NCBI RefSeq assembly: GCF_005670685.2
Contig: NZ_CP062008.1
Span: 2,604,001 to 2,668,000 of the forward strand
Source: Mycolicibacterium mucogenicum DSM 44124
GTDB lineage: Bacteria > Actinomycetota > Actinomycetes > Mycobacteriales > Mycobacteriaceae
Direction: 5' to 3'
DNA length: 64,000 nt
Part shown: one piece after another, positions 1-15,770 of the stretch
Layout of the letters: each line of letters opens with the position of its first letter
Numbering within the stretch: the stretch's first letter is position 1
The notes under the pieces: model-generated
Told to the model about the DNA's origin: nothing
Databases searched by the model: none
Seen by the model: the letters and a program-made list of their open reading frames with translations, nothing else
Program-made: the position numbers and the translations under genes

Positions 1-146
1 AGCAGGGTCGGACCGCGCTCACCTGCGGTGAGGGCGTCGTCGGTGTGCGGAACCCGCACGCCCTGTTGGGTGGTCAGGTACCCCGCGTTGTTGTCGACCC
101 GCGCGGCGTCGAGCTGCTCGTGCTTCGCATTCGATGTTTCGTCCAC
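1..146 (-). CDS. Monofunctional haem catalase, N-terminal part only
   Basis: The first 48 codons of a catalase run off the left edge of the window. Catalases convert hydrogen peroxide to water and oxygen in the cytoplasm. The visible N-terminus contains LTTQQGVRVP, then a DALTAGERGPTLL stretch, which is the conserved entry into the catalase core (family knowledge). Start chosen: GTG at 144-146, because an in-frame TAA lies four codons upstream and no other start exists. There is no Shine-Dalgarno sequence, but a SigF-type -10 ends 9 nt upstream, so the transcript is probably leaderless. Whether it is a small- or large-subunit catalase cannot be told from this fragment. Confidence 0.8.
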   Translation of the reverse strand, partial: MDETSNAKHEQLDAARVDNNAGYLTTQQGVRVPHTDDALTAGERGPTL

Positions 147-155
147 CGTGTCTGG

Positions 156-180
156 TTACCCAAGGCGATGGCCAACAAAC
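156..180 (-). promoter_or_regulatory. SigF-type promoter of the catalase gene
   Basis: Minus strand: -35 GTTT (177-180), 15-nt spacer, -10 GGGTAA (156-161). It fits the mycobacterial SigF consensus GTTT-N15-17-GGGTAT with one mismatch. Only 9 nt separate the -10 from the GTG start, which predicts a leaderless mRNA. Confidence 0.65.
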
Positions 181-201
181 GCGGCGGTTGGCGGCCCTGG
201 T

Positions 202-1206
202 TCACAGCGAGGCGGCCGACGGATATTCCGGTGTGTCGCTGTCCGCTGCGGGAGTGACTTCCTTGACGAAGTCGCCGATGTAGCGGATGGCCCGCCGTCC
301 TTCGGGCAGGACGGCGGCGGCGAGCGGGAAATCGTGAATCTGCCCGTCCCACATATGAAGTTCGCACCGCGCCCCCGCTGCGGTCAGCCGCTCGTACATC
401 AGTTCCGCGTCGGGCCGGAGGAACTCGTCGCTGCTGACGTGGATCGACACCGGCGGCATCTGGTGCAGGTCCGCATCGACGGGTGAGGCGATGGGTTGCC
501 CGGACGAGCTCTTCTCACCGTGCGTGGCGACGTAGCGCATGAACGATGTCATCGCGCGCGCGGTGAACATGGCGCAGCGGTCCTTGCCACCGGGGGATTT
601 GTCGCGCGGGTTCAGCGTCGTCAGGGGAGAGATGGCCGCCACGCCGGCGGTCGGCGGGTGACCGTGCCGAAGCAGTTCCGCAGCGGTCTGCAGCGCGAGG
701 TAGCCGCCCGCGGAGTCCCCGGCCACCACGATCTCGGACCAGCGGTAGCCGCGGTGCAGCAGCCAGCGGAGCCCGTCGGCCGCGTCGGCCAGCGCCGCCG
801 ACAGCCCGTGGTCGGGCAGCATGCGGTAGCCGACGTTGAGCACCTCGGCCTCAGCGCTGCGGGCCAGCCGCGCCACCAGGGATCGGTGCGTGTTGAGGCC
901 GCAGGTGAGGAACGCCCCACCGTGCAGATAGAGGATGGCGCGACGCGCCGACGAGCCTGCGGTGCCGATCAATTCGGCCGGACAGGACGGCAGGCGGACC
1001 CGTTGCACAGTCGTCGATCTCGGCAGCGGGGCCAGCGCGGCGACCTGATCGATGGAACTGAAGGGCCAATGCAGATTCGGTTGCAGGGCCCACATCCGCA
1101 CCACGTTCTTCACGAACACCCGACAGACGGCGCCGATCGCCTGAGATTGCGGACTGCGTCGGCGATGGTGATGCCGTACTCCCTGGTCACGCCGGGTATT
1201 TCGCAT
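202..1206 (-). CDS. Alpha/beta hydrolase, hormone-sensitive-lipase (Lip) family
   Basis: A 334-residue esterase/lipase that probably hydrolyses short or medium acyl esters; the substrate is unknown. It has the family's oxyanion-hole HGG (residues 95-97), nucleophile Ser165 in GDSAGG, a likely Asp260 and His291 (WDGQIHDFP). The N-terminus is rich in Arg and His and shows no signal peptide, so it is probably cytoplasmic or membrane-peripheral. Start chosen: ATG at 1204-1206, with AGGAG 9 nt upstream; a TTG three codons earlier overlaps that ribosome site and is less likely. A consensus SigF-type promoter lies directly upstream, so the gene is likely induced in stationary phase or stress with the neighbouring catalase. 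Confidence 0.85.
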   Translation of the reverse strand: MRNTRRDQGVRHHHRRRSPQSQAIGAVCRVFVKNVVRMWALQPNLHWPFSSIDQVAALAPLPRSTTVQRVRLPSCPAELIGTAGSSARRAILYLHGGAFLTCGLNTHRSLVARLARSAEAEVLNVGYRMLPDHGLSAALADAADGLRWLLHRGYRWSEIVVAGDSAGGYLALQTAAELLRHGHPPTAGVAAISPLTTLNPRDKSPGGKDRCAMFTARAMTSFMRYVATHGEKSSSGQPIASPVDADLHQMPPVSIHVSSDEFLRPDAELMYERLTAAGARCELHMWDGQIHDFPLAAAVLPEGRRAIRYIGDFVKEVTPAADSDTPEYPSAASL

Positions 1207-1230
1207 GGTGATCAACTCCTGGACACTCGG

Positions 1231-1256
1231 GTACCCGTGCCAGATTTTGGTGAAAC
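1231..1256 (-). promoter_or_regulatory. SigF-type promoter of the Lip-family esterase
   Basis: Minus strand: GTTT (1253-1256), 16 nt, GGGTAC (1231-1236), about 25 nt before the ATG. One mismatch from the SigF consensus. Confidence 0.65.
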
Positions 1257-1271
1257 GTTGCGTCAGAGGAG

Positions 1272-1297
1272 GTTTCCGATGGGTACAGACCAGGTAT
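1272..1297 (+). promoter_or_regulatory. SigF-type promoter of the CsbD gene
   Basis: Plus strand: GTTT (1272-1275), 16 nt, AGGTAT (1292-1297). The -10 has one mismatch to GGGTAT. It lies about 47 nt before the GTG of the CsbD gene and is divergent from the esterase promoter at 1231-1256. Confidence 0.5.
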
Positions 1298-1344
1298 GTC
1301 GGTAGTGCCGGAGTTCAAGAGCCGCAATACAAGGAGGAAATGCA

Positions 1345-1581
1345 GTGGGAGAGCACAAGAGCGGTCCCGAAGAGGGCATCAAGGGCACCGTCGAGGGTGT
1401 CAAGGGCAAGCTGAAGGAAGCCGCAGGCAGCGTCGTCGGCCGGGATGACCTGGTCCGTGAGGGACAGGCACAGCAGGACAAGGCCGACGCCGAACGCGAT
1501 GCGGCGAAGCGTGAGGCGGAAGCTGAGTCGGCCCGTGCCGGCGCGGCGGCCGCTGAGAAGCGCCAGCAGCAGAACCAGTAA
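1345..1581 (+). CDS. CsbD family stress protein
   Basis: A 78-residue hydrophilic, charged protein. The N-terminal half (GIKGTVEGVKGKLKEAAG) is the CsbD signature, a family induced by general-stress sigma factors in many bacteria but without a known biochemical role. The C-terminal half is an Ala/Lys/Glu/Gln-rich helix, probably disordered or coiled coil. Start: GTG at 1345 with AAGGAGG 7 nt upstream. An ATG at 1340 is in another frame (it would start MQWES) and is rejected. It is followed by a strong hairpin. The SigF-type promoter upstream agrees with the family's usual control by SigB/SigF. Confidence 0.85.
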   Translation: MGEHKSGPEEGIKGTVEGVKGKLKEAAGSVVGRDDLVREGQAQQDKADAERDAAKREAEAESARAGAAAAEKRQQQNQ

Positions 1582-1588
1582 GCCAGAA

Positions 1589-1625
1589 CGGCCCGGCCTC
1601 CTTCAACCGTGGGGAGGCCGGGCCG
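1589..1625. terminator. Hairpin terminator between convergent genes
   Basis: A 13-bp perfect stem (1589-1601 with 1613-1625) and an 11-nt loop lie 8 nt after the CsbD stop and 15 nt after the end of the opposing membrane gene. There is no U-tract, which is usual for mycobacterial terminators; it may serve both strands. Confidence 0.6.
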
Positions 1626-1640
1626 CTTCGTGTTCGAAAA

Positions 1641-2171
1641 CTATTGTGCGCGAGCGGTATCGCTGTTTCTGCTGTTCTGCATCGCCAACGGCACCAATAC
1701 CCAGAACGTGCAGAAGCCGGCCAGCCCGATGCCGCCGGCGACCCAGCCCGCCACCTGGCCCGCGACGGTGCCGAAGATCAACTCGGTCACGCCGGTCAGG
1801 GCGATCCCGAGCAACAACAGGCCGTAGAAGGCGCATCGATGTGCCGCGGCGACGATCAGCGGCATGCGCCGTTGCCGAAACAGGATGCGGTGCATGCCGA
1901 CTGGGGCGATCAGCAGAATCGTCGACGCGACCGAGAAGCCGACGGTCGCGAGGTAGACGGTCTGGCTCTGGTCATCCAGTGTGCTGAACCGCTGTTGGAA
2001 CGGCAGGGTCAGCAGGAAACCGGTGAGCAGCTGTACTCCGGTCTGCGCGACACGCAGTTCCTGCAACAGACTCGACCAATTGCGGTCCAGCCGTTGGGTT
2101 TCGGTCTCGTGACGGGCCATCCGGTCCCATCTCTGGTCGGACGGTCCCAGATCACCGTGCTCGTCCGTCAT
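1641..2171 (-). CDS. DUF6328 family integral membrane protein
   Basis: About 176 residues. After a charged N-terminus come four hydrophobic segments: around ELRVAQTGVQLLTGFLLTLP, YLATVGFSVASTILLIAPVG, CAFYGLLLLGIALTGVTEL and VAGGIGLAGFCTFWVLVPLA. The ELRVAQTGVQ start of the first segment is typical of DUF6328; function unknown. ATG 2171 is preferred, but an in-frame ATG at 2180 is possible. Both lie inside the end of the upstream gene (stop at 2152), so translation is probably coupled. It is the last gene of a three-gene minus-strand operon whose promoter is of SigF type. Confidence 0.7.
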   Translation of the reverse strand: MTDEHGDLGPSDQRWDRMARHETETQRLDRNWSSLLQELRVAQTGVQLLTGFLLTLPFQQRFSTLDDQSQTVYLATVGFSVASTILLIAPVGMHRILFRQRRMPLIVAAAHRCAFYGLLLLGIALTGVTELIFGTVAGQVAGWVAGGIGLAGFCTFWVLVPLAMQNSRNSDTARAQ

Positions 2172-2388
2172 CGGATACATCGCTCTTGCGTCGAACCTTT
2201 TCCGTGTCGACGACGATGACGCGGTCGTCGGGCCCCGAACCGTAAAAACTGAAGACGTCTCGGTAGCGTGAGGAGTCCACCCGGATCTCACGGACGGTGA
2301 GCCACCGGCCACCGGCCGGGTCCTCGATGATGTCACCCTTCGTCACGTTCGCAGGTCGGACGGCTTCGATGTTGGTATCGATGGTCAT
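2152..2388 (-). CDS. Small hypothetical protein (78 aa)
   Basis: A 78-residue soluble protein of unknown function. The middle (VTKGDIIEDPAGGRWLTVREI) looks like a small beta-barrel fold, similar in style to the short mycobacterial proteins with a K-G-D-x-I motif, but I cannot name a family. A good ribosome site (AAGGGG, 5 nt before ATG 2388) decides the start. It lies 16 nt after the upstream membrane gene and overlaps the start of the DUF6328 gene, so it is the middle gene of an operon. SigF-linked by operon position. Confidence 0.65.
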   Translation of the reverse strand: MTIDTNIEAVRPANVTKGDIIEDPAGGRWLTVREIRVDSSRYRDVFSFYGSGPDDRVIVVDTEKVRRKSDVSDDGRAR

Positions 2389-2404
2389 CGGAACCCCTTG
2401 ACTC

Positions 2405-2776
2405 TCAGGGGGTTTCGAAGGTGAAGGTGAGCACGACGAATCCGGCGATCAACAAGGCCCAGGCGACCAGCGGTACCACGATGCCGCGTCGGGTGCGTGC
2501 CGTCACGAAGGACAGCGCGATGGCCAGCACAGCGACCACTGGCGCGCCGTACTCGATGAGGCCGAACACGAACGGGCTCGGGCCCAGCTTGGCGCAGGTC
2601 CGTTCGGAACAGCCCGCGGTCGCGAGGACCTGGGCGTACTGATACAGGATGATCGCGAAGGCGCCTGGCACGGTGAGGCCGGCCAGCACCCAGTTGATGA
2701 CGGTGCGTCGCCGGTGTCCGGCTTCCTGTGCGTCTGCATCGTGTTGCGCGATCGCCCCGGCCTGGACCTCAGACAT
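2405..2776 (-). CDS. Small integral membrane protein
   Basis: 123 residues with three predicted membrane helices: VINWVLAGLTVPGAFAIILY, an FVFGLIEYGAPVVAVLAIAL region and VPLVAWALLIAGFVVLTFTF. Two Cys residues (CSERTC) sit in the first outer loop. Family not recognised. Start: ATG 2774-2776 with GGGAGG 5 nt upstream. The same frame stays open far upstream, but that part is antisense to the oxidase gene and is not coding. First gene of the operon with the 78-aa protein and the DUF6328 protein; divergent from the TPP enzyme. Confidence 0.7.
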   Translation of the reverse strand: MSEVQAGAIAQHDADAQEAGHRRRTVINWVLAGLTVPGAFAIILYQYAQVLATAGCSERTCAKLGPSPFVFGLIEYGAPVVAVLAIALSFVTARTRRGIVVPLVAWALLIAGFVVLTFTFETP

Positions 2777-2826
2777 CGACACCTCCCGGGTGGTAGCGGC
2801 TTCCTTCGTACTGTCCTGCTGGGGGC

Positions 2827-2852
2827 GTACCCGGGCGGCCGAACCGCGAAAC
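2827..2852 (-). promoter_or_regulatory. SigF-type promoter of the three-gene membrane operon
   Basis: Minus strand: GTTT (2849-2852), 16 nt, GGGTAC (2827-2832). Its -35 is only 4 nt from the -35 of the divergent promoter at 2857-2881, giving the inverted repeat GAAACGCCTGTTTC. Confidence 0.65.
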
Positions 2853-2856
2853 GCCT

Positions 2857-2881
2857 GTTTCGTCCGGTACCTCAGGGGTAT
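2857..2881 (+). promoter_or_regulatory. SigF-type promoter of the TPP-dependent oxidase
   Basis: Plus strand: GTTT (2857-2860), 15 nt, GGGTAT (2876-2881): an exact consensus match. The ATG begins 9 nt after the -10, so a leaderless transcript is expected. Confidence 0.75.
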
Positions 2882-2890
2882 CACGCCGGG

Positions 2891-4693
2891 ATGACGATGA
2901 CTGTTGGGGATTACCTGCTCGAGCGGCTGAGGCAATGGCATGTCCGTCACGTGTTCGCCTATCCGGGCGACGGCATCAACGGGATCGTCGCCGCATTCGG
3001 CCGCAGTGACGATGAGCCGCAATTCATTCAGACCCGCCACGAAGAGATGGCAGCGTTCGGCGCCACGGGGTACGCCAAATTCGGCGGGGGTGTCGGTGTC
3101 TGTATGGCGACGTCGGGTCCGGGCGCCATCCACCTCCTGAACGGGCTGTACGACGCGAAGCTCGACCGCGTTCCGGTGGTGGCAATCGTGGGCCAGACGG
3201 CGCGCAGCGCGATGGGCGGTAGTTATCAGCAGGAAGTCGACCTGCACAGTCTCTACAAGGATGTCGCCAGTGACTATCTGGTCGAGGTCAATGTCGCCAA
3301 CCAGCTGCCCAACGCGCTCGACCGGGCAATCCGCATCGCGCTGGCGAGGCGGGCGCCGACGGCCCTGGTGATCCCGTCGGACCTGCAGGAGCAGCCGTAC
3401 GAACCGCCGCAACACGAGTTCAAGCAGGTGCCGTCGAGCGATCCGGAGTACGTGCCACCTGCGGTGTATCCGCAGAACGAACAGGTCCGCAAGGCCGCCG
3501 ATGTACTCAATGCCGGTGAGCGCGTGGCGATTCTGGTCGGTCAGGGTGCCCGCCGGGCCGCCGACCAGGTGCGCGAACTCGCCGACAAGACAGGCGCCGG
3601 GGTCGCCAAGGCGCTGCTGGGCAAGGACGTGCTGCCGGACGACCTGCCGTATGTCACCGGATCCATCGGGCTCCTCGGGTCGCGGCCGAGCTACGAGATG
3701 ATGCGCGACTGCGACACCCTGCTGATCGTCGGATCGAATTTTCCGTACAGCCAGTTCCTGCCGAAGTTCGGGCAGGCCAGGGGGATTCAGATCGACATCG
3801 ACGGAACCGCGATCGGTATGCGCTACCCGACGGAGGTGAACATCGTCGCCGACGCGGGTGCCGCGCTCGGTGCGCTCCTGCCGCTGGTGGAGCCGAAAAC
3901 CGACCGCACATGGCGAGATACCATCGAGCACAACGTCTCTCGCTGGTGGGACACCATCGAGCGTCAGTGCATGTTGTCGGCCCGACCTGTGAACCCGATG
4001 CGGATCGCGTGGGAACTTTCGCGGCGGATACCGTCGACCGCCATCGTGACGGCCGACTCCGGTTCGTCCACCAATTGGTACGCGCGGTGTCTGAAGTTCC
4101 GTGGTGAGATTCGGGGTTCGCTATCGGGCACGCTCGCCACCATGGGACCCGGGGTGCCATACGCGATCGGTGCGAAGTTCGCGCATCCGGACCGTCCCGT
4201 GGTGGCGCTCGTCGGAGACGGCGCGATGCAGATGAATGGTATGGCCGAGCTGCTGACCATCAAGCGCTACGCCGAGCAATGGTCCGACCCGCGCCTGGTG
4301 GTGTGTGTCTTCCACAACGGTGACCTCAATCAGGTCACCTGGGAGTTGCGGGCAATGGGAGGAGCGCCCAAGTTCGTGCCGTCACAATCGCTACCGGACG
4401 TCTCGTATGCCGAAATCGCCTGTGCCATGGGGCTGGATGGCATCGCGGTTGACAACCCCGAGCGGCTCGGCGAGGCCTGGGATCGGGCGCTGGGTGCCGA
4501 CCACCCCGTGGTGCTGGACGTGCGGTGCGACCCCGAAGTGCCGCCGATCCCGCCGCACGCCACCTACGAACAGATCAAAGATCTGACGGCCGCGATTCTC
4601 AAGGGCGATCCCAACGGCTGGCACCTGGTGTATCAGGGGATGAAGACCAAGGCGCAGGAATACATCGCCCGTTCTGGTGGTGGCGCCGGGTAG
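2891..4693 (+). CDS. Thiamine pyrophosphate enzyme, pyruvate oxidase/dehydrogenase (quinone)-like
   Basis: 600 residues with the three-domain TPP-enzyme layout. The N-terminal Pyr domain has the cofactor-activating Glu in TRHEEMAAF (about residue 51). A central FAD/nucleotide-type domain follows, and the C-terminal PP domain carries the GDGAMQMNG...FHNGDLNQ Mg/TPP motif (from about residue 440). It most resembles PoxB-type pyruvate oxidases and acetolactate-synthase-like enzymes of the same superfamily; pyruvate to acetate plus CO2 with electrons to quinone is the most likely reaction, but the substrate is not proven. Start: ATG 2891, chosen because an exact SigF promoter ends 9 nt before it. 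It would supply electrons to respiration when the main pyruvate dehydrogenase is limited in stress. Confidence 0.8.
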   Translation: MTMTVGDYLLERLRQWHVRHVFAYPGDGINGIVAAFGRSDDEPQFIQTRHEEMAAFGATGYAKFGGGVGVCMATSGPGAIHLLNGLYDAKLDRVPVVAIVGQTARSAMGGSYQQEVDLHSLYKDVASDYLVEVNVANQLPNALDRAIRIALARRAPTALVIPSDLQEQPYEPPQHEFKQVPSSDPEYVPPAVYPQNEQVRKAADVLNAGERVAILVGQGARRAADQVRELADKTGAGVAKALLGKDVLPDDLPYVTGSIGLLGSRPSYEMMRDCDTLLIVGSNFPYSQFLPKFGQARGIQIDIDGTAIGMRYPTEVNIVADAGAALGALLPLVEPKTDRTWRDTIEHNVSRWWDTIERQCMLSARPVNPMRIAWELSRRIPSTAIVTADSGSSTNWYARCLKFRGEIRGSLSGTLATMGPGVPYAIGAKFAHPDRPVVALVGDGAMQMNGMAELLTIKRYAEQWSDPRLVVCVFHNGDLNQVTWELRAMGGAPKFVPSQSLPDVSYAEIACAMGLDGIAVDNPERLGEAWDRALGADHPVVLDVRCDPEVPPIPPHATYEQIKDLTAAILKGDPNGWHLVYQGMKTKAQEYIARSGGGAG

Positions 4694-4734
4694 CCCCGTG
4701 TAGTGTGAGAAGCACGACGCTGTTGTACAGCGTG

Positions 4735-4754
4735 GCCGCTTAGCCAAAAGCGGC
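4735..4754 (+). terminator. Hairpin after the TPP-enzyme gene
   Basis: A 7-bp stem (4735-4741 with 4748-4754) and a 6-nt loop, preceded by a second small hairpin at about 4717-4733. No U-tract. The rest of the 4694-4961 gap shows no gene and no SigF-type promoter that I can see. Confidence 0.4.
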
Positions 4755-4961
4755 GTCGGTCGAGAGACTGCAGCTCGGCGCGTGAATCCGGTCCAGAGCG
4801 GGGCCTCCATTCTCAGGATTCGCCGGTTGCGGCCGGGCTCGACTTCGGCAGATTGCCGTTCCGCCTCCACGGCGGAAGCCAGCACGTCGCGGACCCCGTA
4901 ATTGTGTATGCCGTCAATCGGTGGTGTCGTGCGTGCTGTCACACCCTGGAAGGGGTGCTGC

Positions 4962-5792
4962 ATGTCAGTTTCTGTGTTGGAAAACGACTTTCGCGAAACG
5001 AGCGAGCCGGTTGAGGCGGGCTCGGATCAAAGTCCTGACGAATACGCGGACGTGGTCGCGATGGTCGCGGTGCTCCGTCAATTACCGCCCGACTCGGACG
5101 CCTACGCGCGTCAACTCGAACGGATCGTGCTGCGGTGCTGCCCGCTGGCGGACCGGGTGGCCCGCCACTTCGACCGCCGAGGCGAGAACCTCGAAGACCT
5201 GATCCAGGTGGCCCGGGTGGGGTTGCTGCAGGCGGTCAACCGATTCGATCCCGCGCGGGGATCACGATTCGTCGCGTTCGCCCTTCCCACGATGATGGGG
5301 GAGTTGCGCCGGTACTTCCGTGACTATGGCTGGAAAGTGCACGTACCCAGGCGAATTCGCGATCGGCAGCACGATATTGCCTGTGCTACTGCATATTTGA
5401 CGAGCGACCTGAGAAGGGCGCCGAGTATCGAGGAGCTCGCCAAGGAACTGGAGATAGACCGTGACCAGGTCGTCGAGAGCATCGTGGCAGCCAAGGCGTA
5501 TCAGCCCCAGTCGCTCGACGTGAACGTCAGCGACGACGATGCGCGCGCGCAGGCGCTGGGTGACTCGCTCGGTGAGATGGACGCCGGCTTCGACCGTGTG
5601 ACGGATCGCGAATCGGTACGGTCCCTGCTGGCGGCGCTGCCTCGACGCGAGCAGAAGGTGCTTTATCTGCGGTACTTCGGTGCCATGACGCAGCGTCAGA
5701 TCGCCGACTCGATCGGCGTTTCCCAGATGCATGTGTCACGGATACTGGACCGCACCTTGCGCGATTTGCGAGCTCAAGTGGGTTGCGCCTGA
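4962..5792 (+). CDS. RNA polymerase sigma factor, SigF/SigB/SigG (group 3) family
   Basis: 276 residues. Region 2 spans about 54-130 (RRGENLEDLIQVARVGLLQA, then RFDPARGSRFVAFALPTMMG and a VPRR end). Region 3 lies about 140-190 with PSIEELAKELEID. Region 4 is about 220-270 with an HTH (MTQRQIADSIGVSQMHVSRI). There is no region 1.1, which fits stress/sporulation-type sigma factors. Start ATG 4962 has GGAAGGGG 6 nt upstream; an upstream in-frame ATG at 4902 lacks a ribosome site. No anti-sigma or anti-anti-sigma gene adjoins it, unlike the usfX-sigF locus. No SigF box is visible before it. It may read promoters like those around it (inference). It overlaps the convergent CDGSH gene by 19 bp. Confidence 0.85.
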   Translation: MSVSVLENDFRETSEPVEAGSDQSPDEYADVVAMVAVLRQLPPDSDAYARQLERIVLRCCPLADRVARHFDRRGENLEDLIQVARVGLLQAVNRFDPARGSRFVAFALPTMMGELRRYFRDYGWKVHVPRRIRDRQHDIACATAYLTSDLRRAPSIEELAKELEIDRDQVVESIVAAKAYQPQSLDVNVSDDDARAQALGDSLGEMDAGFDRVTDRESVRSLLAALPRREQKVLYLRYFGAMTQRQIADSIGVSQMHVSRILDRTLRDLRAQVGCA

Positions 5793-6010
5793 TCGACGCC
5801 GGACTTTCGGCCATCGGCGGCAGAACGGTTCTGTCGCCGATGGCTGGTGTCGCACCACGGATAGGTTTTGCTGCGCTGGCAGCAGCAGATGGCGACCATG
5901 AATCTGTCGGAGCAGACCCGGGTGCCGTCTTCCAGTTCGACCTCGACCGGTCCCTGGATCAACATCGGGCCGCGGGGGACGATGCGCACGGTTCTTCGGC
6001 TGGGGCTCAT
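5774..6010 (-). CDS. CDGSH-type iron-sulfur protein
   Basis: 78 residues with the motif CCCQRSKTYPWCDTSH (Cys-x-Cys, then Cys-Asp and His ligands), the 3Cys:1His [2Fe-2S] site of CDGSH proteins; the usual G after CD is T here. The N-terminal half (VRIVPRGPMLIQGPVEVELE) is the MitoNEET-like prokaryotic domain. Likely electron transfer or iron-sulfur handling in the cytoplasm. Start ATG 6010 overlaps the stop of the upstream methyltransferase (ATGA), so the two are translationally coupled. The 3' end overlaps the sigma factor gene on the other strand. Confidence 0.8.
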   Translation of the reverse strand: MSPSRRTVRIVPRGPMLIQGPVEVELEDGTRVCSDRFMVAICCCQRSKTYPWCDTSHRRQNRSAADGRKSGVDQAQPT

Positions 6011-6684
6011 GGCTTCACCGCCTTGATGGCGGCCAGTTCTTCGGTGCGTCGTCCGGGCGTCAAGCGACCGGTGTCTTCCAGCCAGCGTGCCCGTGCGGTC
6101 ATCACGGGCCCGAACGGGATGGTCCGGCGCGCCACCACAGCGGCCTGAAGTCCGCCGTCCCGCAAGGCGGTGACGCTGCTCGCGACACCGGCGAACTCGG
6201 ACTGAACGATGAGCAGTGTGCCACCGCGCTTGAGCAGTGCGGGTGCCGCGGCGCAGAGCGGATCGAGGATGAGTCGGCCGTCGGGACCGGCATTGAACGA
6301 TGTGGGCGGGCCGCCGGCGCCGACGATCACCGGCTCCCGGCTGGCGGGCTCCGGCACGTACGGCGGGTTGCACAGCACCAGGTCGAACGGCTCGAGTTCC
6401 AGCGCCGCCGACCAGGAACCGAGCCGCGCATCGATCGGGGATTGGGCGAGTCGAGCATTGGCGCGGGCCGCCGCGATGGCGGCGCGTGACGTATCGAAGG
6501 CGACGACGCTGTCTGCTCCGGCACCGGACGCAGCAATCGCTGCCACCCCGCTTCCCGTACACAGGTCCGCGACGCGCATACCCGCCGGGTGGCAGCAGCG
6601 GTGCATGGTATCGATCAGCAGTCGCGAATCATGTTGCGGCAGATATACGTTTGCGCACTCGCGGGAGATTTCGGAGCTCAGCAT
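6007..6684 (-). CDS. Class I SAM-dependent methyltransferase, HemK/PrmC-like
   Basis: 225 residues. SAM-binding motif I is VADLCTGSGVAAIAA and the catalytic motif is CNPPYVPEP, the NPPY signature of N5-glutamine/N6-adenine methyltransferases. It lacks the N-terminal substrate domain of PrmC and is nearer in layout to the small HemK2/Mtq2-type enzymes; a release-factor or other protein Gln substrate is possible but not shown. ATG 6684 is the start. The gene is coupled by ATGA to the CDGSH gene and has a SigF-like promoter (GGCTAT) upstream. Confidence 0.75.
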   Translation of the reverse strand: MLSSEISRECANVYLPQHDSRLLIDTMHRCCHPAGMRVADLCTGSGVAAIAASGAGADSVVAFDTSRAAIAAARANARLAQSPIDARLGSWSAALELEPFDLVLCNPPYVPEPASREPVIVGAGGPPTSFNAGPDGRLILDPLCAAAPALLKRGGTLLIVQSEFAGVASSVTALRDGGLQAAVVARRTIPFGPVMTARARWLEDTGRLTPGRRTEELAAIKAVKP

Positions 6685-9445: not shown

Positions 9446-9470
9446 TTTCCCGTGCGGCTTGCGCCCAAAC
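9446..9470 (-). promoter_or_regulatory. Possible SigF-like promoter of the DoxX-like gene
   Basis: Minus strand: GTTT (9467-9470), 15 nt, GGGAAA (9446-9451). Two mismatches in the -10, so weaker than the others. Confidence 0.35.
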
Positions 9471-9508
9471 ATCATCCTGGCGCGGGATAGGCGATCGGCG
9501 TGCCCATC

Positions 9509-9715
9509 TCAGGCGTCGCGTCCGAAATCGTCTTCATCGGCGTCTATTTCGACGTCCGTGGTCTGCTCCACCCAATCGTGCGGGGCGGCCTCCGTCGGTG
9601 GGTTGTCGCTGCCGGTGACCGCTGCTTCATCGTCGAGGACCTGTTCGTGGACGTCACGCGACTGCTCGACGGCGTCCGCGTCGGGAACTGCGTCCGGGAA
9701 CTGTTGTGGTGTCAT
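9509..9715 (-). CDS. Small acidic hypothetical protein (68 aa)
   Basis: 68 residues, strongly acidic (many Asp/Glu, ending VEIDADEDDFGRDA), no membrane segment, probably disordered. No family recognised. Start ATG 9715: an exact SigF consensus promoter ends 10 nt upstream, and no Shine-Dalgarno is seen, so the mRNA is probably leaderless. The frame continues upstream to 9763, but that part would lie over the promoter and is rejected. Head-to-head with the DoxX promoter region downstream. Confidence 0.65.
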   Translation of the reverse strand: MTPQQFPDAVPDADAVEQSRDVHEQVLDDEAAVTGSDNPPTEAAPHDWVEQTTDVEIDADEDDFGRDA

Positions 9716-9725
9716 GACAGAGCAG

Positions 9726-9750
9726 ATACCCGCCCCGCCCGCCGGAAAAC
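9726..9750 (-). promoter_or_regulatory. SigF-type promoter of the small acidic protein
   Basis: Minus strand: GTTT (9747-9750), 15 nt, GGGTAT (9726-9731): an exact consensus match, 10 nt from the ATG. Confidence 0.7.
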
Positions 9751-9814
9751 ACTTCGTGTTCAAGGGGCCGGGCGAGATCGACTGCGCGGCAAGGGGAGAT
9801 ATCCCGGCTCCGAG

Positions 9815-10114
9815 TCAGCTCGTCGGCGGCGTCCGCGGCTCACCAGGATGCGAGTGGAGATAGTCGAGCTCACGGCGCCGGATGCGGCGGTGCCGCGTGA
9901 AGAGCCACGCGCCACCCACCACAGCCAGCACGGCCGCGATTGCCAGCGTCACTCCACCTGTGTCCGGTTGAGCCTCGGCGAAGAAGTACAGGCTCACGAC
10001 CAGGGTGGCAACTGCGAGGGCAAGAGCCACCAGACCCGGAGCATTCGTGCCGTCCTTGAAGGATTCGCCGGCATGCGGCCGGGTGGTGCGAGCATGGTCG
10101 ACGGGGTCTTTCAT
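9815..10114 (-). CDS. UsfY-like membrane protein
   Basis: 99 residues. The N-terminus DPVDHARTTRPHAGESF resembles UsfY, the protein encoded next to usfX-sigF in M. tuberculosis (from memory of that family). Two membrane helices follow (APGLVALALAVATLVVSLYF and VTLAIAAVLAVVGGAWLF), then a basic RHRRIRRRELDYLHSHP tail. Function unknown. Start ATG 10114 has AGGAGG 7 nt upstream. No convincing SigF box is upstream, which is odd for this family and this region. Divergent from the haem-oxygenase-like gene. Confidence 0.7.
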   Translation of the reverse strand: MKDPVDHARTTRPHAGESFKDGTNAPGLVALALAVATLVVSLYFFAEAQPDTGGVTLAIAAVLAVVGGAWLFTRHRRIRRRELDYLHSHPGEPRTPPTS

Positions 10115-10219
10115 GGGATGCCTCCTGGGGATAAGTCCTCGACGTTCTAATGCCCGGCGCAGCGCGGTTCTACACCCGCCGTGCCGACGCCTACACCCCG
10201 TGAGCCGCAGTGCCAGCGG

Positions 10220-10245
10220 GTTTAGCTGCCCGTGCCTGCGGGTAT
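10220..10245 (+). promoter_or_regulatory. SigF-type promoter of the haem-oxygenase-like gene
   Basis: Plus strand: GTTT (10220-10223), 16 nt, GGGTAT (10240-10245): exact -35 and -10, 12 nt before ATG 10258, with GGGGAGG between. Confidence 0.7.
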
Positions 10246-10257
10246 CGGGGAGGTCTC

Positions 10258-11280
10258 ATGTGCACAGAAGAACTTGTTCAGCCTTTGCTGCCGGATCCGC
10301 GCGGTCCATTGTCGAGTGTGGTGACCGGACTGCTGGGGGAGCGACTGCCCACGCAGTATTTGGCGCGGATACAGCTACCACTACTCGCGAACACCGATCC
10401 CTTCGGACTCGACCTGCAGTTGGCGCTCTACGTCTGCTACGAGCTGCATTACCGGGGCTTCACCGGCACCGACGAGAAGTGGGAATGGAACCCCGCGCTC
10501 CTCGATGTTCGCCATCGTCTCGAGGAGCGATTCCTCGCCGCCGTCCGGGAGCTCGTCGGTGACATCAGCCCCGACAGTACGGCGCACGCCGAGCTGAATC
10601 GCTGTGACACCGAACCTGTCGATGACTCGAGTCTGTCTGTGTACCTGCAAGATCAGGCGACGTGGCCGCAGATGCAGGAGTACTTCGTCCACCGGTCGCT
10701 GTACCACCTGAAGGAAGCCGACCCGCAGTCGTGGATCATTCCGCGGTTGACCGGACGCGCGAAAGCCGCGCTGGTGGCAGTGGAATACGACGAATACGGC
10801 GGTCGGGGCGGCTACGCGACCATGCACCAGCGCCTGTTCGCCGATCTGCTCGACGCCGCGGATCTGCGCAGCGACTACCTGCACTACCTCGGCAACGCGA
10901 CGGGCAGCACGCTGGCCGCGGTGAACCTCATGTCGATGTTCGGTCTGCATCGTCACCTGCGCGGCGCGGCCGTCGGCCATTTCGCCGCGACCGAACTGAC
11001 CTCGTCGCCGGCATCGCAGCGAATAGTCAAGGGCCTCAGGCGACTTGGCGCCCCGCGGCCGTGCGTCGACTTCTATCGCGAGCATGTCGAGGCCGACGCG
11101 GTTCACGAACAGGTGGTCCGCAAGGACGTCGTGGCAGACCTGCTGTCGCGTGAGCCGGGCCTGGAACTGGACATCGTGTTCGGCATCCGGGCCTTCGACG
11201 CGATCGAGGGACGGCTCGCCGATCACATGCTGTCCAGCTGGGCGGCGGGGTGCCCGTCGCTGCACCACTGGCCCGTTTGA
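10258..11280 (+). CDS. Iron-containing redox enzyme, haem-oxygenase-like fold
   Basis: 340 residues. The C-terminal two thirds match the iron-containing redox/haem-oxygenase-like diiron family (HDO-type helical bundle): Glu/His-rich helices such as YVCYELHYRGF, QMQEYFVHRSLYHLKEADP, VEYDEYGGR and DFYREHVEADAVHEQVV carry spaced acidic and His metal ligands. Known members oxidise amino or fatty acyl groups; the substrate is not predictable here. Start ATG 10258 has GGGGAGG just upstream and a consensus SigF promoter. The stop codon overlaps the -35 of the hemerythrin promoter. Confidence 0.75.
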   Translation: MCTEELVQPLLPDPRGPLSSVVTGLLGERLPTQYLARIQLPLLANTDPFGLDLQLALYVCYELHYRGFTGTDEKWEWNPALLDVRHRLEERFLAAVRELVGDISPDSTAHAELNRCDTEPVDDSSLSVYLQDQATWPQMQEYFVHRSLYHLKEADPQSWIIPRLTGRAKAALVAVEYDEYGGRGGYATMHQRLFADLLDAADLRSDYLHYLGNATGSTLAAVNLMSMFGLHRHLRGAAVGHFAATELTSSPASQRIVKGLRRLGAPRPCVDFYREHVEADAVHEQVVRKDVVADLLSREPGLELDIVFGIRAFDAIEGRLADHMLSSWAAGCPSLHHWPV

Positions 11281-11299
11281 CCTCCGGCGCACCGGGTAA
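11275..11299 (+). promoter_or_regulatory. SigF-type promoter of the hemerythrin gene
   Basis: Plus strand: GTTT (11275-11278), 15 nt, GGGTAA (11294-11299). The -35 overlaps the end of the upstream coding region, so the hemerythrin has its own start of transcription. Confidence 0.6.
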
Positions 11300-11355
11300 C
11301 CGGTGGGGGACGCGCTCACAGCCCGGGCGCGTAAGACGTTCCCACAGGAGGAAAT

Positions 11356-11916
11356 ATGGCTTCTCACGCCCTCAAATCCCCGTCTGATGTGATCGATCTC
11401 CTCACTGATCAGCACGAGCAGATCAAGTCACTGTTCACCGAGACCCTGGTGCTGACCGGCGACGAGAGAGCGAGGTCGTTCCGGGATCTGCGCCGGCTCC
11501 TCGCGGTGCACGAGACCGCAGAGGAGGAGATCGTCCATCCGCGCGCGAAGCAGAAGCTGCCCGGTGGCGAGAAGGTTGTCGACGCCAGGCTCGAAGAGGA
11601 GCACGAGGCGAAAAAGCTTCTCGCCGAATTGGAATCGCTCGATGTCGATAGCAAGGAGTTCACCACCAAGCTGACGAAACTCCGCGACGCGGTGATCGCG
11701 CACGCCGAGCACGAGGAGGCCGAGGAGTTCGCCAAGCTCGGAACCGAGCTGTCGCAGACGGAACTTCAGCGCATGGGTGAAATCGCCAAACTCGCCGAAG
11801 CGGTCGCACCGACCAGGCCACACCCCGGTGTGGAGTCCCCGGTCGCGAACCTCATCGTCGGGCCGTTCGCAGCCATGCTGGACCGGGTACGGGACGTGAT
11901 CTCGAGCGCCCGCTGA
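11356..11916 (+). CDS. Hemerythrin HHE-domain protein
   Basis: 186 residues. Diiron ligands are laid out as in HHE hemerythrins: DQHEQIKSLF (first His), VHETAEEEIVHP, EEEHEAKKLLAEL, and IAHAEHEEAEEF. The C-terminal 40 residues are a separate helix (NLIVGPFAAMLDRVRDVISS). Mycobacterial members respond to peroxide, oxygen or NO and affect sigma-factor-linked stress survival. Start ATG 11356 has AGGAGGAA upstream. It has a SigF-type promoter and follows the haem-oxygenase-like enzyme, which fits iron/oxygen handling. Confidence 0.9.
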   Translation: MASHALKSPSDVIDLLTDQHEQIKSLFTETLVLTGDERARSFRDLRRLLAVHETAEEEIVHPRAKQKLPGGEKVVDARLEEEHEAKKLLAELESLDVDSKEFTTKLTKLRDAVIAHAEHEEAEEFAKLGTELSQTELQRMGEIAKLAEAVAPTRPHPGVESPVANLIVGPFAAMLDRVRDVISSAR

Positions 11917-11994
11917 CCGACGATCGCTGGGTGCATTCGAATCCGATGCGTCCCATGCCAAGTCGAACGGCCATGTTGGTGGAGTTCCTGGTGA

Positions 11995-12020
11995 GTTTGT
12001 CTCCGAACCTTCCGGGGTAA
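11995..12020 (+). promoter_or_regulatory. SigF-type promoter of the iron-permease-like gene
   Basis: Plus strand: GTTT (11995-11998), 16 nt, GGGTAA (12015-12020), 27 nt before ATG 12048. Confidence 0.6.
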
Positions 12021-12047
12021 ACAACGGTGCTCAGGAAAGGACGCGCC

Positions 12048-12461
12048 ATGACCGCCTCCGATAATGCCGTCGCTGACGTGATGCCGTCCGGTGTCACCGG
12101 CAAGGTGTCCCCGTTCGACCGATTCGCCACCAGCACGGCTGAAATCGTTTCCCGGGCCTGGTTCTTCCTGGCCTGCGTGCTGCTGGTGATCGTCTGGGCG
12201 CCGACGTTCGCCCTCATGACCGTCGACACCTGGCAGCTGGTCATCAACACGATCACGACGATCATCACGTTCCTGTTGGTCGCCCTGCTGCAGAACACCC
12301 AGCGGCGTTCCGATGACGCGATTCAGCACAAGCTCAACGCCGTCGCCGACGCCCTGGCAGATTTGATGCACCACCTGGGCGACGAGAACGACAGCATTCG
12401 CGACGACGAGAAAGAACTGCGGGAGGCCGTCGGTCTCGAAGAACGCGAAAGCACCGGCTGA
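12048..12461 (+). CDS. Low-affinity iron permease family protein
   Basis: 137 residues with two membrane helices (AWFFLACVLLVIVWAPTFAL and LVINTITTIITFLLVALLQN) followed by a polar helix (AIQHKLNAVADALADLMHHL) and an acidic tail. This is the small low-affinity iron permease/COG5478 family; direct iron transport by it is not proven. Start ATG 12048 with AGGAAAGG about 7 nt upstream. SigF-type promoter upstream. The stop lies 9 nt from the end of the convergent ctaD gene. Confidence 0.8.
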   Translation: MTASDNAVADVMPSGVTGKVSPFDRFATSTAEIVSRAWFFLACVLLVIVWAPTFALMTVDTWQLVINTITTIITFLLVALLQNTQRRSDDAIQHKLNAVADALADLMHHLGDENDSIRDDEKELREAVGLEERESTG

Positions 12462-12470
12462 CGGTGACCG

Positions 12471-14150
12471 TCACCGGCCGACGTGCGACTCGTTACGCAT
12501 CCGTTCTGTCATGTGGGGGTAGTGCAGCTCGAAAGCCGGCCGCTCCGAACGGATTCGGGGCAGCTCGGTGAAGTTGTGCCGCGGCGGCGGGCAGGTCGTG
12601 GCCCACTCGAGCGAGTTGCCGTGGCCCCAGGGGTCGTCGACGACGACGGGCTCGCCGTAGCGCCAGCTCTTGAACACGTTCCAGACGAACGGCAGCACCG
12701 ACAGCGCAAGGATGAAGGACCCGATGGTGGAGACCAGGTTGAGGGCGTCGAAGCCGTCGCCGGGCAGGTAGTCCGCATAGCGGCGGGGCATGCCCGCATC
12801 GCCCAGCCAGTGCTGCACGAGGAACGTGGTGTGGAAGCCGATGAAGGTCAACCAGAAGTGCAGCTTGCCGAGGCGCTCGTCGAGCAGCCGTCCGCACATC
12901 TTCGGGAACCAGAAGTAGATGCCGGCATAGGTGGCGAACACGATGGTGCCGAACAGCACGTAATGGAAGTGCGCCACAACGAAATACGAGTCCGTGACGT
13001 GGAAGTCGAGCGGCGGGCTGGCCAGCAGCACGCCGGAGAGTCCGCCCAACAGGAAGGTGACGAGGAAACCGACCGAGAACAGCATCGGCGTCTCGAAGGT
13101 CAACTGCCCCTTCCACATGGTGCCGATCCAATTCCAGAATTTGATGCCGGTGGGGACCGCGATCAGGAACGTCATGAACGAGAAGAACGGCAGCAGCACG
13201 GCACCCGTGGCGAACATGTGGTGCGCCCACACCGCGACCGACAGCACGGTGATGGCCCACGTAGCGTAAATCAGTGTGGTGTAACCGAATATCGGTTTGC
13301 GCGAGAACACCGGAATGATCTCGGTGACGATGCCGAAGAACGGCAGCGCGACGATGTACACCTCAGGGTGCCCGAAGAACCAGAACAGGTGTTGCCACAG
13401 GATCGTGCCGCCATTGGCCGCGTCGTAGATGTGCGCCCCCAGGTGACGCTGCGCGAGCAGACCGAACAGCGCCGCGGTCAGGATCGGGAAGGCGAGGAGG
13501 ATCAGCACGCCGGTGGCCACGATGTTCCAGGTGAAGATGGGCATGCGGAACATGGTCATGCCGGGGCAGCGCATGCAGACCACGGTGGTGATCATGTTGA
13601 CCGCACCGAGGATTGTGCCGAGTCCGGACACGATCAGGCCCACGGCCCACAGGTCCCCACCGGACCCCGGCGAATGGGCAGCGTCGGACAACGGGGTGTA
13701 CCCCGTCCACCCGAAATCCGCTGCGCCGCCGGGCACGACGAATCCGGCCAGCACCATCAGCCCACCGAACAGGAACAGCCAGAACGACAGCGCGTTGAGG
13801 CGGGGGAAGGCGACGTCCGGTGCGCCGATCTGCAGGGGCAGCACGAGATTCGCGAAACCGAACACGACGGGGGTCGCGTACAGCAGCAGCATCAAGGTGC
13901 CGTGCACGGTGAACAGCTGGTTGTACTGCTCGTTGGACAAGAACTGCAGACCGGGCATGGCGAGCTCGGTGCGCATCAGCAATGCCATGATCCCGGCGCT
14001 GAAGAAGAACGCGAACGACGCCGCCAGGTACATCTGGCCGATCAGCTTGTGATCGGTCGTGCTGACGAGTCCGTACAGGACAGCGCCCAAACTCTTGCGG
14101 CGCGCCGGGAACGGCCGCTGCGGCGTCAACGGCACTTCGACAGCAGTCAC
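12471..14150 (-). CDS. ctaD: Cytochrome c oxidase subunit I (aa3-type)
   Basis: 559 residues, twelve membrane helices. It carries the haem-copper core: [15 protein letters not shown] (haem a ligand), [17 protein letters not shown] (CuB His and cross-linked Tyr), WAHHMFATG (CuB His pair), and [11 protein letters not shown] (haem a3/a ligands). It reduces O2 and pumps protons as part of the aa3 oxidase supercomplex. Start: GTG 14148-14150, 9 nt after a SigF -10, so leaderless. It stands alone, without ctaC/ctaE or qcr genes. It is thus likely a second, stress-induced copy in addition to a housekeeping ctaD elsewhere (inference; the other copy is not in this window). Confidence 0.9.
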
Positions 14151-14159
14151 CCCGGGGCG

Positions 14160-14185
14160 GTACCCGGGTCGCCCTGGTACTAAAC
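14160..14185 (-). promoter_or_regulatory. SigF-type promoter of ctaD
   Basis: Minus strand: GTTT (14182-14185), 16 nt, GGGTAC (14160-14165). 9 nt before the GTG start. Its -35 is 3 nt from the -35 of the divergent dps promoter. Confidence 0.65.
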
Positions 14186-14188
14186 GGT

Positions 14189-14214
14189 GTTTGCCCCCGA
14201 TGCCGTAGGGGTAG
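14189..14214 (+). promoter_or_regulatory. SigF-type promoter of dps
   Basis: Plus strand: GTTT (14189-14192), 16 nt, GGGTAG (14209-14214). One mismatch in the -10; 9 nt before ATG 14224. Confidence 0.6.
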
Positions 14215-14223
14215 AGGCAACCA

Positions 14224-14760
14224 ATGAGCGAATTCACCATTCCAGGGCTTTCCGAAGAGCAGAGCAGCCGGATCCGAGAACTGCTGCAAATCCAACTGAG
14301 CACGTACAACGACCTGCATCTCACGCTCAAGCACGTGCATTGGAATGTTGTGGGCCCCAATTTCATTGGCGTGCACGAGATGATCGATCCGCAGGTCGAG
14401 CTGGTGCGGGGTTACGCCGATCAGACAGCCGAACGCGTCGCGGCGCTCGGCGCGTCGCCCGACGGTACGCCGGGGGCGATTCTCAAACATCGCACCTGGG
14501 ACGACTACTCGATCGGCCGTGACACCGCGCAAGCGCACCTCGCGGCGCTCGACCTGGTCTACGACGGCGTCATCAAGGACGCGCGTAAGTCGATCGAAGA
14601 ACTGGACGAGCTCGATCTGGTCACGCAGGACATGCTGATCGGTCAGGTCGCCGAACTGGAGAAGTTCCAGTGGTTCGTCCGTGCCCACCTGGAATCCGCC
14701 GGCGGCGAGCTGGCCACCGGCGGTGCGCACACCGAGCGCCAGGCGGCGGCTCAGGCGTAA
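14224..14760 (+). CDS. dps: DNA-binding ferritin-like protein Dps
   Basis: 178 residues, very close to the mycobacterial Dps family. Ferroxidase residues lie in [20 protein letters not shown] (His, Asp) and the following PQVE Glu. The C-terminal tail is short ([17 protein letters not shown]). It forms dodecamers that bind DNA and mineralise iron using H2O2, protecting DNA in stationary phase. ATG 14224 is 9 nt after a SigF-type -10. Divergent from ctaD with shared, abutting promoters. The stop overlaps the end of the convergent F420 oxidoreductase gene by 10 bp. Confidence 0.93.
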
Positions 14761-15719
14761 GCCGAGGCCTGGAATTCCGGCAGTACGTCGCGCTCCCAGG
14801 CGTCGAAGAAGCCGTCCATGTCCGGACCGATCTGCTGGACGTAGATCTCGTCGACACCGGCGTCGACGTACTTGCGCACCTGGGCGACATGGGCGTCGAT
14901 GTCGGGTCCGCAGACGATCGCGTCGGTGACGGCCTCGTGCGTCACCAGGCTCGCGGCGGACGCGAAATCCGTTGGCCGGGGCAGAATCTGGTTGAGTTGT
15001 CCGGGTAGCTGCTCGGTGGCCCACAAACGGTGCGCCGTGTCGGCCGCGAATTCCGGGTCCAGGTCCCAGCAGACCTTCATCCCGGCCTGCACCGGCTTGC
15101 GGCCGCCGCCGGCCTCGCGGAACAGCGCAACGCGATCGGCGTCGGGCATGGTGATGCAGTAGCCGTCACCGATCCGCCCTGCCAGCCGGGTTGCCTGCGG
15201 GCCGAAACCCGAAATATAGATCGGTATGCGGTGGTCCGGCAGCGTGTAGATGCGCGCGTCCTGGACGTGGAAGTAGCGGCCGTCGTGGTTCAGTTCTTCG
15301 CCGCGGTGCAGAGCCCTGATGAGCGAGACCGCTTCGGCGAGTCGGTCCAGCCGTTCACCGGCCGAGGGCCACGGGTCGCCGAGGATGTGCTCGTTCAGCG
15401 CCTCTCCGCTGCCGACTCCGAGCCGGAAGCCGCCGCGCAGCTGCACGGCGGCTGTCGCGGCGGCCTGCGCGATGATCGCGGGATGTATCCGGAACGTCGG
15501 GCACGTGACGGCGGTCGTCACGGGTAGTGCCGTCACCTCGGACAGCGTGCCCAGAATGCCCCAGACGAAGGGGCTTTGGCCCTGTTCGTCGTTCCACGGG
15601 TGGAAGTGGTCTGATACCCACAGCGCGTGGAATCCGGCTTCCTCGGCTCGTCTGGCCTGAGCGATCAGGTCGTGGGGATTGAACTGTTCACAGCAGAGGA
15701 AGTAACCGATATGCGTCAT
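14751..15719 (-). CDS. LLM class F420-dependent oxidoreductase
   Basis: 322 residues, TIM-barrel luciferase-like family. Typical features: IGYFLCCEQFNP start, RRAEEAGFHALWVSDHFHPW, LRGGFRLGVGSGEALNEHILGD and GFGPQATRLAGRIGDGYC. It belongs to the FGD-like branch that uses coenzyme F420; the substrate (sugar phosphate or another) is not clear. Start ATG 15719, 9 nt after GGGTAC with a GATT -35, a SigF-like and leaderless arrangement. Two in-frame upstream codons that could start earlier lie across the promoter and are rejected. Confidence 0.85.
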   Translation of the reverse strand: MTHIGYFLCCEQFNPHDLIAQARRAEEAGFHALWVSDHFHPWNDEQGQSPFVWGILGTLSEVTALPVTTAVTCPTFRIHPAIIAQAAATAAVQLRGGFRLGVGSGEALNEHILGDPWPSAGERLDRLAEAVSLIRALHRGEELNHDGRYFHVQDARIYTLPDHRIPIYISGFGPQATRLAGRIGDGYCITMPDADRVALFREAGGGRKPVQAGMKVCWDLDPEFAADTAHRLWATEQLPGQLNQILPRPTDFASAASLVTHEAVTDAIVCGPDIDAHVAQVRKYVDAGVDEIYVQQIGPDMDGFFDAWERDVLPEFQASAYA

Positions 15720-15728
15720 GTGGGCCGC

Positions 15729-15754
15729 GTACCCGGCAAGTGAGGCGGACAATC
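15729..15754 (-). promoter_or_regulatory. SigF-like promoter of the F420 oxidoreductase
   Basis: Minus strand: GATT (15751-15754), 16 nt, GGGTAC (15729-15734), 9 nt before the ATG. The -35 has one mismatch. Confidence 0.45.
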
Positions 15755-15770
15755 CCGCTAGGGAGTTACG

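Follow-up and report, generated by a model that had tools for sequence, protein, structure and literature searches.

A dense island of predicted SigF-type promoters around a SigF paralogue in Mycolicibacterium mucogenicum

Genes and boxes of the island

The stretch analyzed here, called the window below, is 64 kilobases (kb) of the Mycolicibacterium mucogenicum DSM 44124 genome (C1:2604001-2668000, C1 being the single contig of 6,099,273 bases that makes up the genome; coordinates without C1 are window positions). An island of 18 kb, extending from about C1:2601616 to window position 15754, holds about 17 genes or operons that are preceded by SigF-type boxes across roughly 18,000 bases, with the gene for a sigma factor of the SigB/SigF/SigG family in their midst; the left end of the island (katE-chaB) lies outside the window. 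Functions related to peroxide, iron and respiration predominate, and several of the island genes are without known function. The island is, in our judgement, probably a general-stress regulon packed in one place with a SigF-paralogue sigma factor in its middle. A preliminary description of the window had proposed a stress island of SigF type from its boxes and gene types; it had overlooked the sigma gene (4962-5792), and the start of the island to the left of the window was not visible to it.

An exact box is defined here as GTTT-N15/16-GGGTA, and start codons are our own assignments. At the left end, katE encodes a long catalase of 702 amino acids on the minus strand (C1:2602038-2604146, with the 5' end at 1-146; Pfam Catalase, E 5e-178), followed downstream by a ChaB/Rho_N gene (C1:2601616-2601969; Pfam ChaB, E 1e-9); both are kept in the three relatives compared below (L045-L047). 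The katE box is exact with N15 (157-180, minus) and stands 10 nucleotides (nt) before the start codon. The adjacent gene for an alpha/beta hydrolase of the hormone-sensitive-lipase type (202-1206, minus; Pfam Abhydrolase_3, E 4e-47) starts at a conserved ATG, 25 nt from an exact N16 box (1232-1256, minus), and beside it a variant box, GTTT-N16-AGGTA (1272-1296, plus), precedes the gene for a CsbD-like protein (1345-1581, plus; Pfam CsbD, E 2.6e-8, under the gathering cut-off). A probable operon on the minus strand (1641-2776), comprising h2405 (2405-2776), h2152 (2152-2388) and a gene for a DUF6328 membrane protein (1641-2180), is headed by an exact N16 box (2828-2852, minus). This box diverges from the exact N15 box (2857-2880, plus) of a pyruvate-oxidase-like thiamine pyrophosphate (TPP) enzyme (2891-4693, plus; NF006129 PRK08273, above cut-off). 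The sigma gene (4962-5792, plus; 276 amino acids), assigned to its family with TIGR02980 and by tree, follows a partly conserved region devoid of boxes (4694-4961, plus). A hairpin, TTCCGCC-N5-GGCGGAA, is found at 4859-4877, in the interval that separates the TPP enzyme gene from the sigma gene; its stem is mostly kept in the relatives and its loop varies.

To the right of the sigma gene, a CDGSH iron-sulfur protein (5774-6010, minus; Pfam zf-CDGSH, E 3.6e-15) and a HemK/PrmC-like methyltransferase (6007-6684, minus; under the cut-offs of the named models) are encoded behind a variant box, GTTT-N16-GGCTA (6718-6742, minus), which has GGTTA in the relatives. An exact N15 box at 6776-6799 (plus), kept in all four species, points antisense into the gene for an endonuclease/exonuclease/phosphatase (EEP) protein (6807-7583, minus, with the longest reading from 7628; Pfam E 3.6e-19; third-codon-position bias) and toward the gene for a nucleotidyltransferase-like protein (7627-8175, plus; conserved, with a weak match to Pfam NTP_transf_5 under the cut-off). 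The plus-strand open reading frame (ORF) at 6810-7637, just behind this box, was considered as coding and dropped in favor of EEP on the minus strand, given the Pfam match and the substitutions at EEP third positions. In their longest readings, these divergent genes run into each other at the start codons (7626-7629), and positions 6776-8175 possibly give rise to an antisense-linked pair of transcripts.

Two small membrane proteins, the second of them DUF6131 (8259-8656, plus), are encoded behind an exact N16 box (8194-8218, plus). They are followed on the minus strand by the genes for a DoxX-like protein (8686-9435) with the variant box GTTT-N15-GGGAA (9447-9470), for a small acidic protein, h9509 (9509-9715), with an exact N15 box (9727-9750), and for h9815 (9815-10114), a small protein with no family above cut-off, whose variant box, GTGT-N16-GGGCA (10151-10175), stands 36 nt from the start codon. 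In the DoxX-like protein a segment of about 25 residues is repeated at the C-terminus. Three plus-strand genes come next: a haem-oxygenase-like iron-containing redox enzyme (10258-11280; Pfam Haem_oxygenas_2, E 2e-54) behind an exact N16 box (10220-10244), a hemerythrin HHE protein (11356-11916) behind an exact N15 box (11275-11298) and a low-affinity iron-permease-like protein (12048-12461; Pfam E 1.9e-23) behind an exact N16 box (11995-12019). Exact N16 boxes at 14161-14185 (minus) and 14189-14213 (plus) belong to ctaD, encoding subunit I of an aa3 cytochrome oxidase (12471-14135, minus; NF050116, above cut-off), and to the gene for a Dps/ferritin-like protein (14224-14760, plus), respectively. 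The last gene, for an F420-dependent oxidoreductase (14751-15719, minus; TIGR03557, above cut-off), has the variant box GATT-N16-GGGTA (15730-15754, minus). The gene types named in the preliminary description, among them catalase, Dps, hemerythrin, CDGSH and ctaD, are thus all borne out by the family searches.

Box density, conservation and chromosomal slot

Pattern scanning of the 64 kb found 12 exact boxes, all within 157-14213, and none at 15801-64000, just as had been described for the remaining 48 kb; the 20 kb of left flank (C1:2584001-2604000) have no exact box either. With the five variants the island has 17 boxes. The clustering reported earlier is thus confirmed, with 12 exact and 5 variant boxes where at least 13 good and 2 weaker ones had been counted. 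All except one (16 of 17) sit 10-57 nt ahead of the assigned start codon (the h9815 distance was determined by hand), in agreement with their description as lying directly upstream of transcripts; the exception is box 6776, which is 827 nt from the putative nucleotidyltransferase gene. When the whole window was dinucleotide-shuffled 100 times, with N14-18 allowed, the mean was 0.28 boxes and the maximum 4. The whole genome has 76 matches with N14-17, compared to 20 for a reversed control pattern, and the N15/16 subset of these, counted by hand, is 57. Twelve of the 57 (21%) fall within 14 kb, where 0.10 would be expected from the density elsewhere, and when 57 sites were placed randomly 100,000 times there were never more than 6 in a 14-kb stretch. 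An equal density elsewhere in the genome had been named beforehand as the result that would speak against the island; the densest other 14-kb stretch has 3 exact boxes. A position matrix, trained partly on the boxes of relatives and therefore partly circular, gave 17 sites with a score of at least 13 in 1-15810, the other 48 kb having 3; those in the island are 16 of the 17 boxes (h9815 was missed) and one opposite-strand site overlapping the katE box.

An identical 25-base box match (G000:C1:1384019, C1:3387003 and several other genomes) recurs in many mycobacteria and possibly lies in coding sequence; genome-wide box counts may therefore include chance matches. Outside the island, a GGTT-N16-GGGTA box (20208-20232, minus) lies 12 nt before a gene that is TetR-like by eye (19578-20195).

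The island was compared with those of three close Mycolicibacterium relatives (L045, L046 and L047; the four species mentioned here include M. mucogenicum itself). It is nearly collinear in all of them, with cytb561-catrel-dtd to the left and PAS-ANTAR and radical-SAM genes to the right, and the sigma gene has the same island position in all four species. At matching places, 35 of 36 boxes in the relatives are exact, or 34 of 35 without the iron-permease place of L046, where the box precedes a different gene and the iron permease was not detected in the island; the single inexact box, with N14, is before h9509 in L046. Identity in spacers of equal length amounts to 131/172, 117/156 and 92/141 positions (11, 10 and 9 pairs; 65-76%), the boxes being paired by order and strand and the pairs with spacers of unequal length dropped (1/12, 2/12 and 2/11). 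As far as these alignments go, the boxes are selectively kept relative to their spacers. All five variant boxes are kept as well, those of csbD, the methyltransferase, the F420 enzyme and h9815 in all four species and that of DoxX in the three alignable ones. Exact boxes number 55, 51 and 53 in the genomes of the relatives; the island accounts for 12, 11 and 12 of them among the matches listed. As to gene content, h2152 was not detected in L047. The gap between hemerythrin and iron permease is about 1 kb longer in the relatives, where L046:17106-18164 is a 352-codon ORF, M42-type-peptidase-like by eye, of which window positions 11917-11994 retain only short matching pieces.

Could the cluster be an artefact of base composition or of repeats? 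The shuffles, the reversed control and the genome scan rule this out, and conservation above that of the spacers and the position before start codons contradict it too, leaving practically no probability for it. The boxes fit the M. smegmatis SigF consensus, GTTT-N(14-19)-GGGTA, given in Table 1 of PMC4694148, with 12 exact and 5 variant boxes upstream of island genes. The SigF-type interpretation of the preliminary description is supported by this consensus match together with clustering beyond chance, selective conservation and promoter-like placement, and the boxes very probably represent real SigF-type promoters.

The island lies between hisS and a radical-SAM gene, a slot that presumably corresponds to Rv2578c-Rv2580c in M. 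tuberculosis. Of the 32 genomes searched (our own included), 27 have the radical-SAM gene, and hisS is present in all 27. The distance between the two ranges from 0.25 to 45 kb in the 26 others, compared to 21.6 kb here. Fifteen slot pieces, taken from 14 of these 26 genomes (G046 without its middle 8 kb), showed none of 24 island families at the thresholds used, so that the island has evidently been added to a slot of variable content. The only non-flanking matches in these pieces were catrel and cytb561 in G009 and, in the slot of G082 (L123), a match of 43% identity to the island sigma factor; the only exact boxes were in G046, one in each of two pieces. Among sequence features associated with mobility, no tRNA gene was found in the 20-kb left flank and the first 25 kb of the window, and no integrase among those island proteins that were searched against Pfam; the GC content shows a mild dip (0.653 vs. 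0.672 and 0.688).

The island sigma factor and the proposed control of the island promoters

A whole-genome search with TIGR02980 identified three sigma factors above the cut-off, at C1:4414942, C1:3266990 and C1:2609109, the last being the island gene at window positions 4962-5792, whose 279 bits (cut-off 234.35) make it a member of the SigB/SigF/SigG family. The name SigF in the preliminary description therefore suits the type of box and leaves the sigma factor ambiguous among the three. In a tree of 59 SigF-type proteins, with some of its inner forks open and several long branches, C1:4414942 belongs to the canonical SigF clade (32 rows, support 100/99). The island sigma factor and C1:3266990 are sisters in a separate clade of 19 rows (100/96), outside the canonical one, which also includes the sigma genes of genomes G050, G088 and G092. 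By this placement the island sigma factor is a paralogue of canonical SigF. Its region 4.2 segment SQMHVSR equals the canonical SigF consensus, and region 2.4 is similar. The ratio of non-synonymous to synonymous substitution rates (dN/dS) relative to the three close relatives is 0.077-0.088, which as a sequence measure means that the island sigma factor is under purifying selection. Matches of RsbW type (HATPase_c_2) number 17 in the genome, one of them at 4415763 beside the canonical sigF, and none in the window. No box was found in the 268 bases upstream of the sigma gene, either in the alignment of the four species or in the matrix scan of the window.

Of 118 genomes of the genus (our own included), 114 have a SigF-type match with an E-value no higher than 1e-60, and a hand count gives two or more such genes in 55 of the 118, so that the question of how they share promoters is not peculiar to one species. 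We collected 46 SigF-type loci of about 20 kb each from our own and 31 other complete or near-complete genomes, excluding the window island (also outside this set are draft genomes, several near-complete ones, e.g. G004, G020, G079 and G117, and unlisted matches). These loci have 77 exact boxes, compared to 6.8 expected and 4 with the control pattern; at least two boxes are found at 18 of the 46 and at least four at 7.

Three distant mycobacteria, G050, G088 and G092, each have one SigB/F/G factor above cut-off, in the paralogue clade. At this sole sigma gene lie 9 of the 35 boxes of G050 (in 18.5 kb), 7 of the 29 of G088 (in 8 kb) and 5 of the 29 of G092 (in 5.4 kb); boxes elsewhere number 26, 22 and 24, respectively, vs. 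totals of 17, 21 and 33 for the reversed control. In G050, 12 of 24 tested island families besides the sigma factor occur in a different order within the approximately 18 kb that hold its sigma gene: katE, ChaB, TPP enzyme, DUF6328, PAS-ANTAR, h9815, CsbD, iron permease, nucleotidyltransferase, methyltransferase, CDGSH and iron-redox enzyme. Five island families are near the sigma gene in G088 and three in G092, where the surrounding gene order also differs from the island. The preliminary description had asked whether the island moves as a block, and here the picture is divided: it is nearly collinear in four species, while in deeper relatives some of its families are found reordered, at another locus and with a related sigma factor. 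In all three genomes, a weak match of RsbW type (28-30 bits, above cut-off) lies at a distance of about 1 kb from the sigma gene. In G088 and G092, two exact boxes overlap head to head near the sigma gene (L069, G088:C1:2554598-2554626; L068, G092:C1:2513374-2513402), and each stretch of about 29 bases is predicted to be a near-palindromic bidirectional SigF-type promoter.

The box clusters at the paralogue in these three sole-sigma genomes are among the reasons why we infer that the island sigma factor likely reads the island promoters, a function that canonical SigF probably shares. In the mechanism we propose, nearly every island transcript would be driven by a separate SigF-type promoter; the trigger would be stress from peroxide, iron or impaired respiration, or else stationary phase. 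A holoenzyme of RNA polymerase with a SigF-type sigma factor would recognize the GTTT and GGGTA elements and switch on all transcripts together, including those for catalase, Dps, hemerythrin, CDGSH, iron-redox enzyme, iron permease, cytochrome oxidase subunit and pyruvate oxidase. The reader would be the island's own sigma factor, with canonical SigF probably also able to act. Promoter activity, the reading sigma factor, the inducing stress and a restraint of the island sigma factor without a neighbouring anti-sigma gene are here all deduced from sequence.

Several observations weigh against a regulon organized around the island sigma factor, and some of them favor a different assignment, in which the island is a dense part of the regulon of canonical SigF (C1:4414942) and the island sigma factor a bystander or in a different, weaker role. 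Canonical SigF coexists in the genome, with an adjoining gene of RsbW type, and could read all the boxes, which match the consensus established for SigF of M. smegmatis. With NF005514, the model for mycobacterial SigF proper, the island sigma factor scores 361.8 bits, under the cut-off of 372, compared to 367 for the second paralogue, 440.6 for the canonical factor of the same genome and 426.9 for G050. No more than one box is found at 28 of the 46 SigF-type loci, and among the other loci of the paralogue clade, 8 of 18 lack an exact box in the stretch examined (one a 3.9-kb contig), so that sigma genes of the clade are not always accompanied by a box cluster. The boxes of G050 outside its sigma locus exceed the control, and the lack of a box before the island sigma gene means that autoregulation through a box of its own is not supported. 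Canonical sigF neighbourhoods share island families in G034 (9) and G077 (7), and the gene repertoire is thus not exclusive to the paralogue. Cross-recognition of promoters among the SigB homologues of Streptomyces (PMC8346170) and a dense SigF-dependent run near the canonical sigF of M. smegmatis (MSMEG_1766-1804; PMC4694148) fit this assignment too. Nevertheless, three genomes without another SigB/F/G factor above cut-off keep a box cluster at a sigma gene of the paralogue clade, and the island sigma factor is under purifying selection at the same island place in four of four species. We consider exclusive ownership by canonical SigF rather unlikely, at somewhat above one chance in four.

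A division of labour between the two factors appears less probable still. Here the island sigma factor would be an orphan, constitutive or transcriptionally controlled, that sets a basal level of island expression to which canonical SigF adds induction. The window, with no match of RsbW type, differs in this respect from G050, G088 and G092 with their weak matches close to the sigma gene, and the region before the island sigma gene is partly conserved yet boxless, both of which would suit such an arrangement; on the other hand, an anti-sigma factor of another family, or control by a distant RsbW, is possible. Returning to a regulon packed around its own reader, a stronger form of it can be put forward tentatively: a self-contained sigma regulon, in which a sigma factor would stay physically linked to most of the promoters and genes it controls, as a unit that was rebuilt or moved to different places on the chromosome during mycobacterial evolution. 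The 8 of 18 other paralogue-clade loci that lack a box make this form less probable. The boxes outside the cluster are at background in G088 and G092, where the whole exact-box regulon would thus be essentially the island. In the lineage of M. mucogenicum this unit would, on the same tentative footing, exist without a partner-switching anti-sigma gene beside it and alongside canonical SigF.

Comparison with known systems

Genes reduced in expression in a sigF mutant of M. smegmatis include, in Table 1 of PMC4694148, a methylase, DoxX, hemerythrin, catalase, a DNA-protecting protein and ChaB, a likeness to the island that goes by product name; the sigF-dependent list of that paper has more than one hemerythrin and catalase, and the DNA-protecting protein is starvation-induced. 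MSMEG_3255, a DoxX gene, is listed there with GTTT-N15-GGGAA, the same variant as in the island DoxX box. The run MSMEG_1766-1804 resembles the island in being dense in sigF-dependent genes, with many boxes of the GTTT-N15/16-GGGTA type and with a methylase and its neighbour (PMC4694148). It differs in that it reaches the canonical rsbW-sigF, whereas the island has no match of RsbW type and is placed between hisS and a radical-SAM gene. For M. smegmatis, a single group III sigma factor is stated (PMC4694148); the cluster described here holds a paralogue instead.

For the M. mucogenicum clade, sigF1, sigF2 and sigF3 have been described as three sigF genes in three places, with sigF3 linked to an anti-sigma gene; the available sections of that account of extra sigF copies (PMC6917791) report no box-dense islands around them. 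The sigF cluster of M. abscessus (MAB_2511, MAB_2512 and usfX, MAB_2513c) was found to be induced and, unlike the island, has the usfX anti-sigma gene (PMC4974804). Judged from its chromosomal position, the M. abscessus sigF may belong to the paralogue clade of the island sigma factor. Strains without detected sigF are mentioned for the chelonae-abscessus complex (PMC6418233). Partner switching is treated in PMC7693655, according to which loss or inhibition of the aa3 oxidase is accompanied by higher expression of two genes of the SigF regulon.

SigF-dependent clusters and multiple sigF genes have thus already been published, separately. In the open-licence literature we found no description of a box-dense island around a SigF paralogue, nor of its combination with the lack of an RsbW-type match beside it and a gene set recurring in shuffled form elsewhere. 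General-stress sigma regulons are usually viewed as dispersed across the chromosome. Here, the 14 kb surrounding a single SigF paralogue contain about one fifth of the exact boxes of the genome, and some of the gene set is met again in a distant mycobacterium, near a sigma gene related to this one. This raises the questions of why a regulon should remain together with its reader and by what means a SigF-type factor is controlled without a neighbouring anti-sigma gene.

The island also offers a compact natural system for studying promoter sharing among paralogous sigma factors where the boxes are nearly identical. A likeness exists in Streptomyces coelicolor, which also has several sigma factors of SigB/F type: its nine SigB homologues overlap in promoter recognition (PMC8346170).

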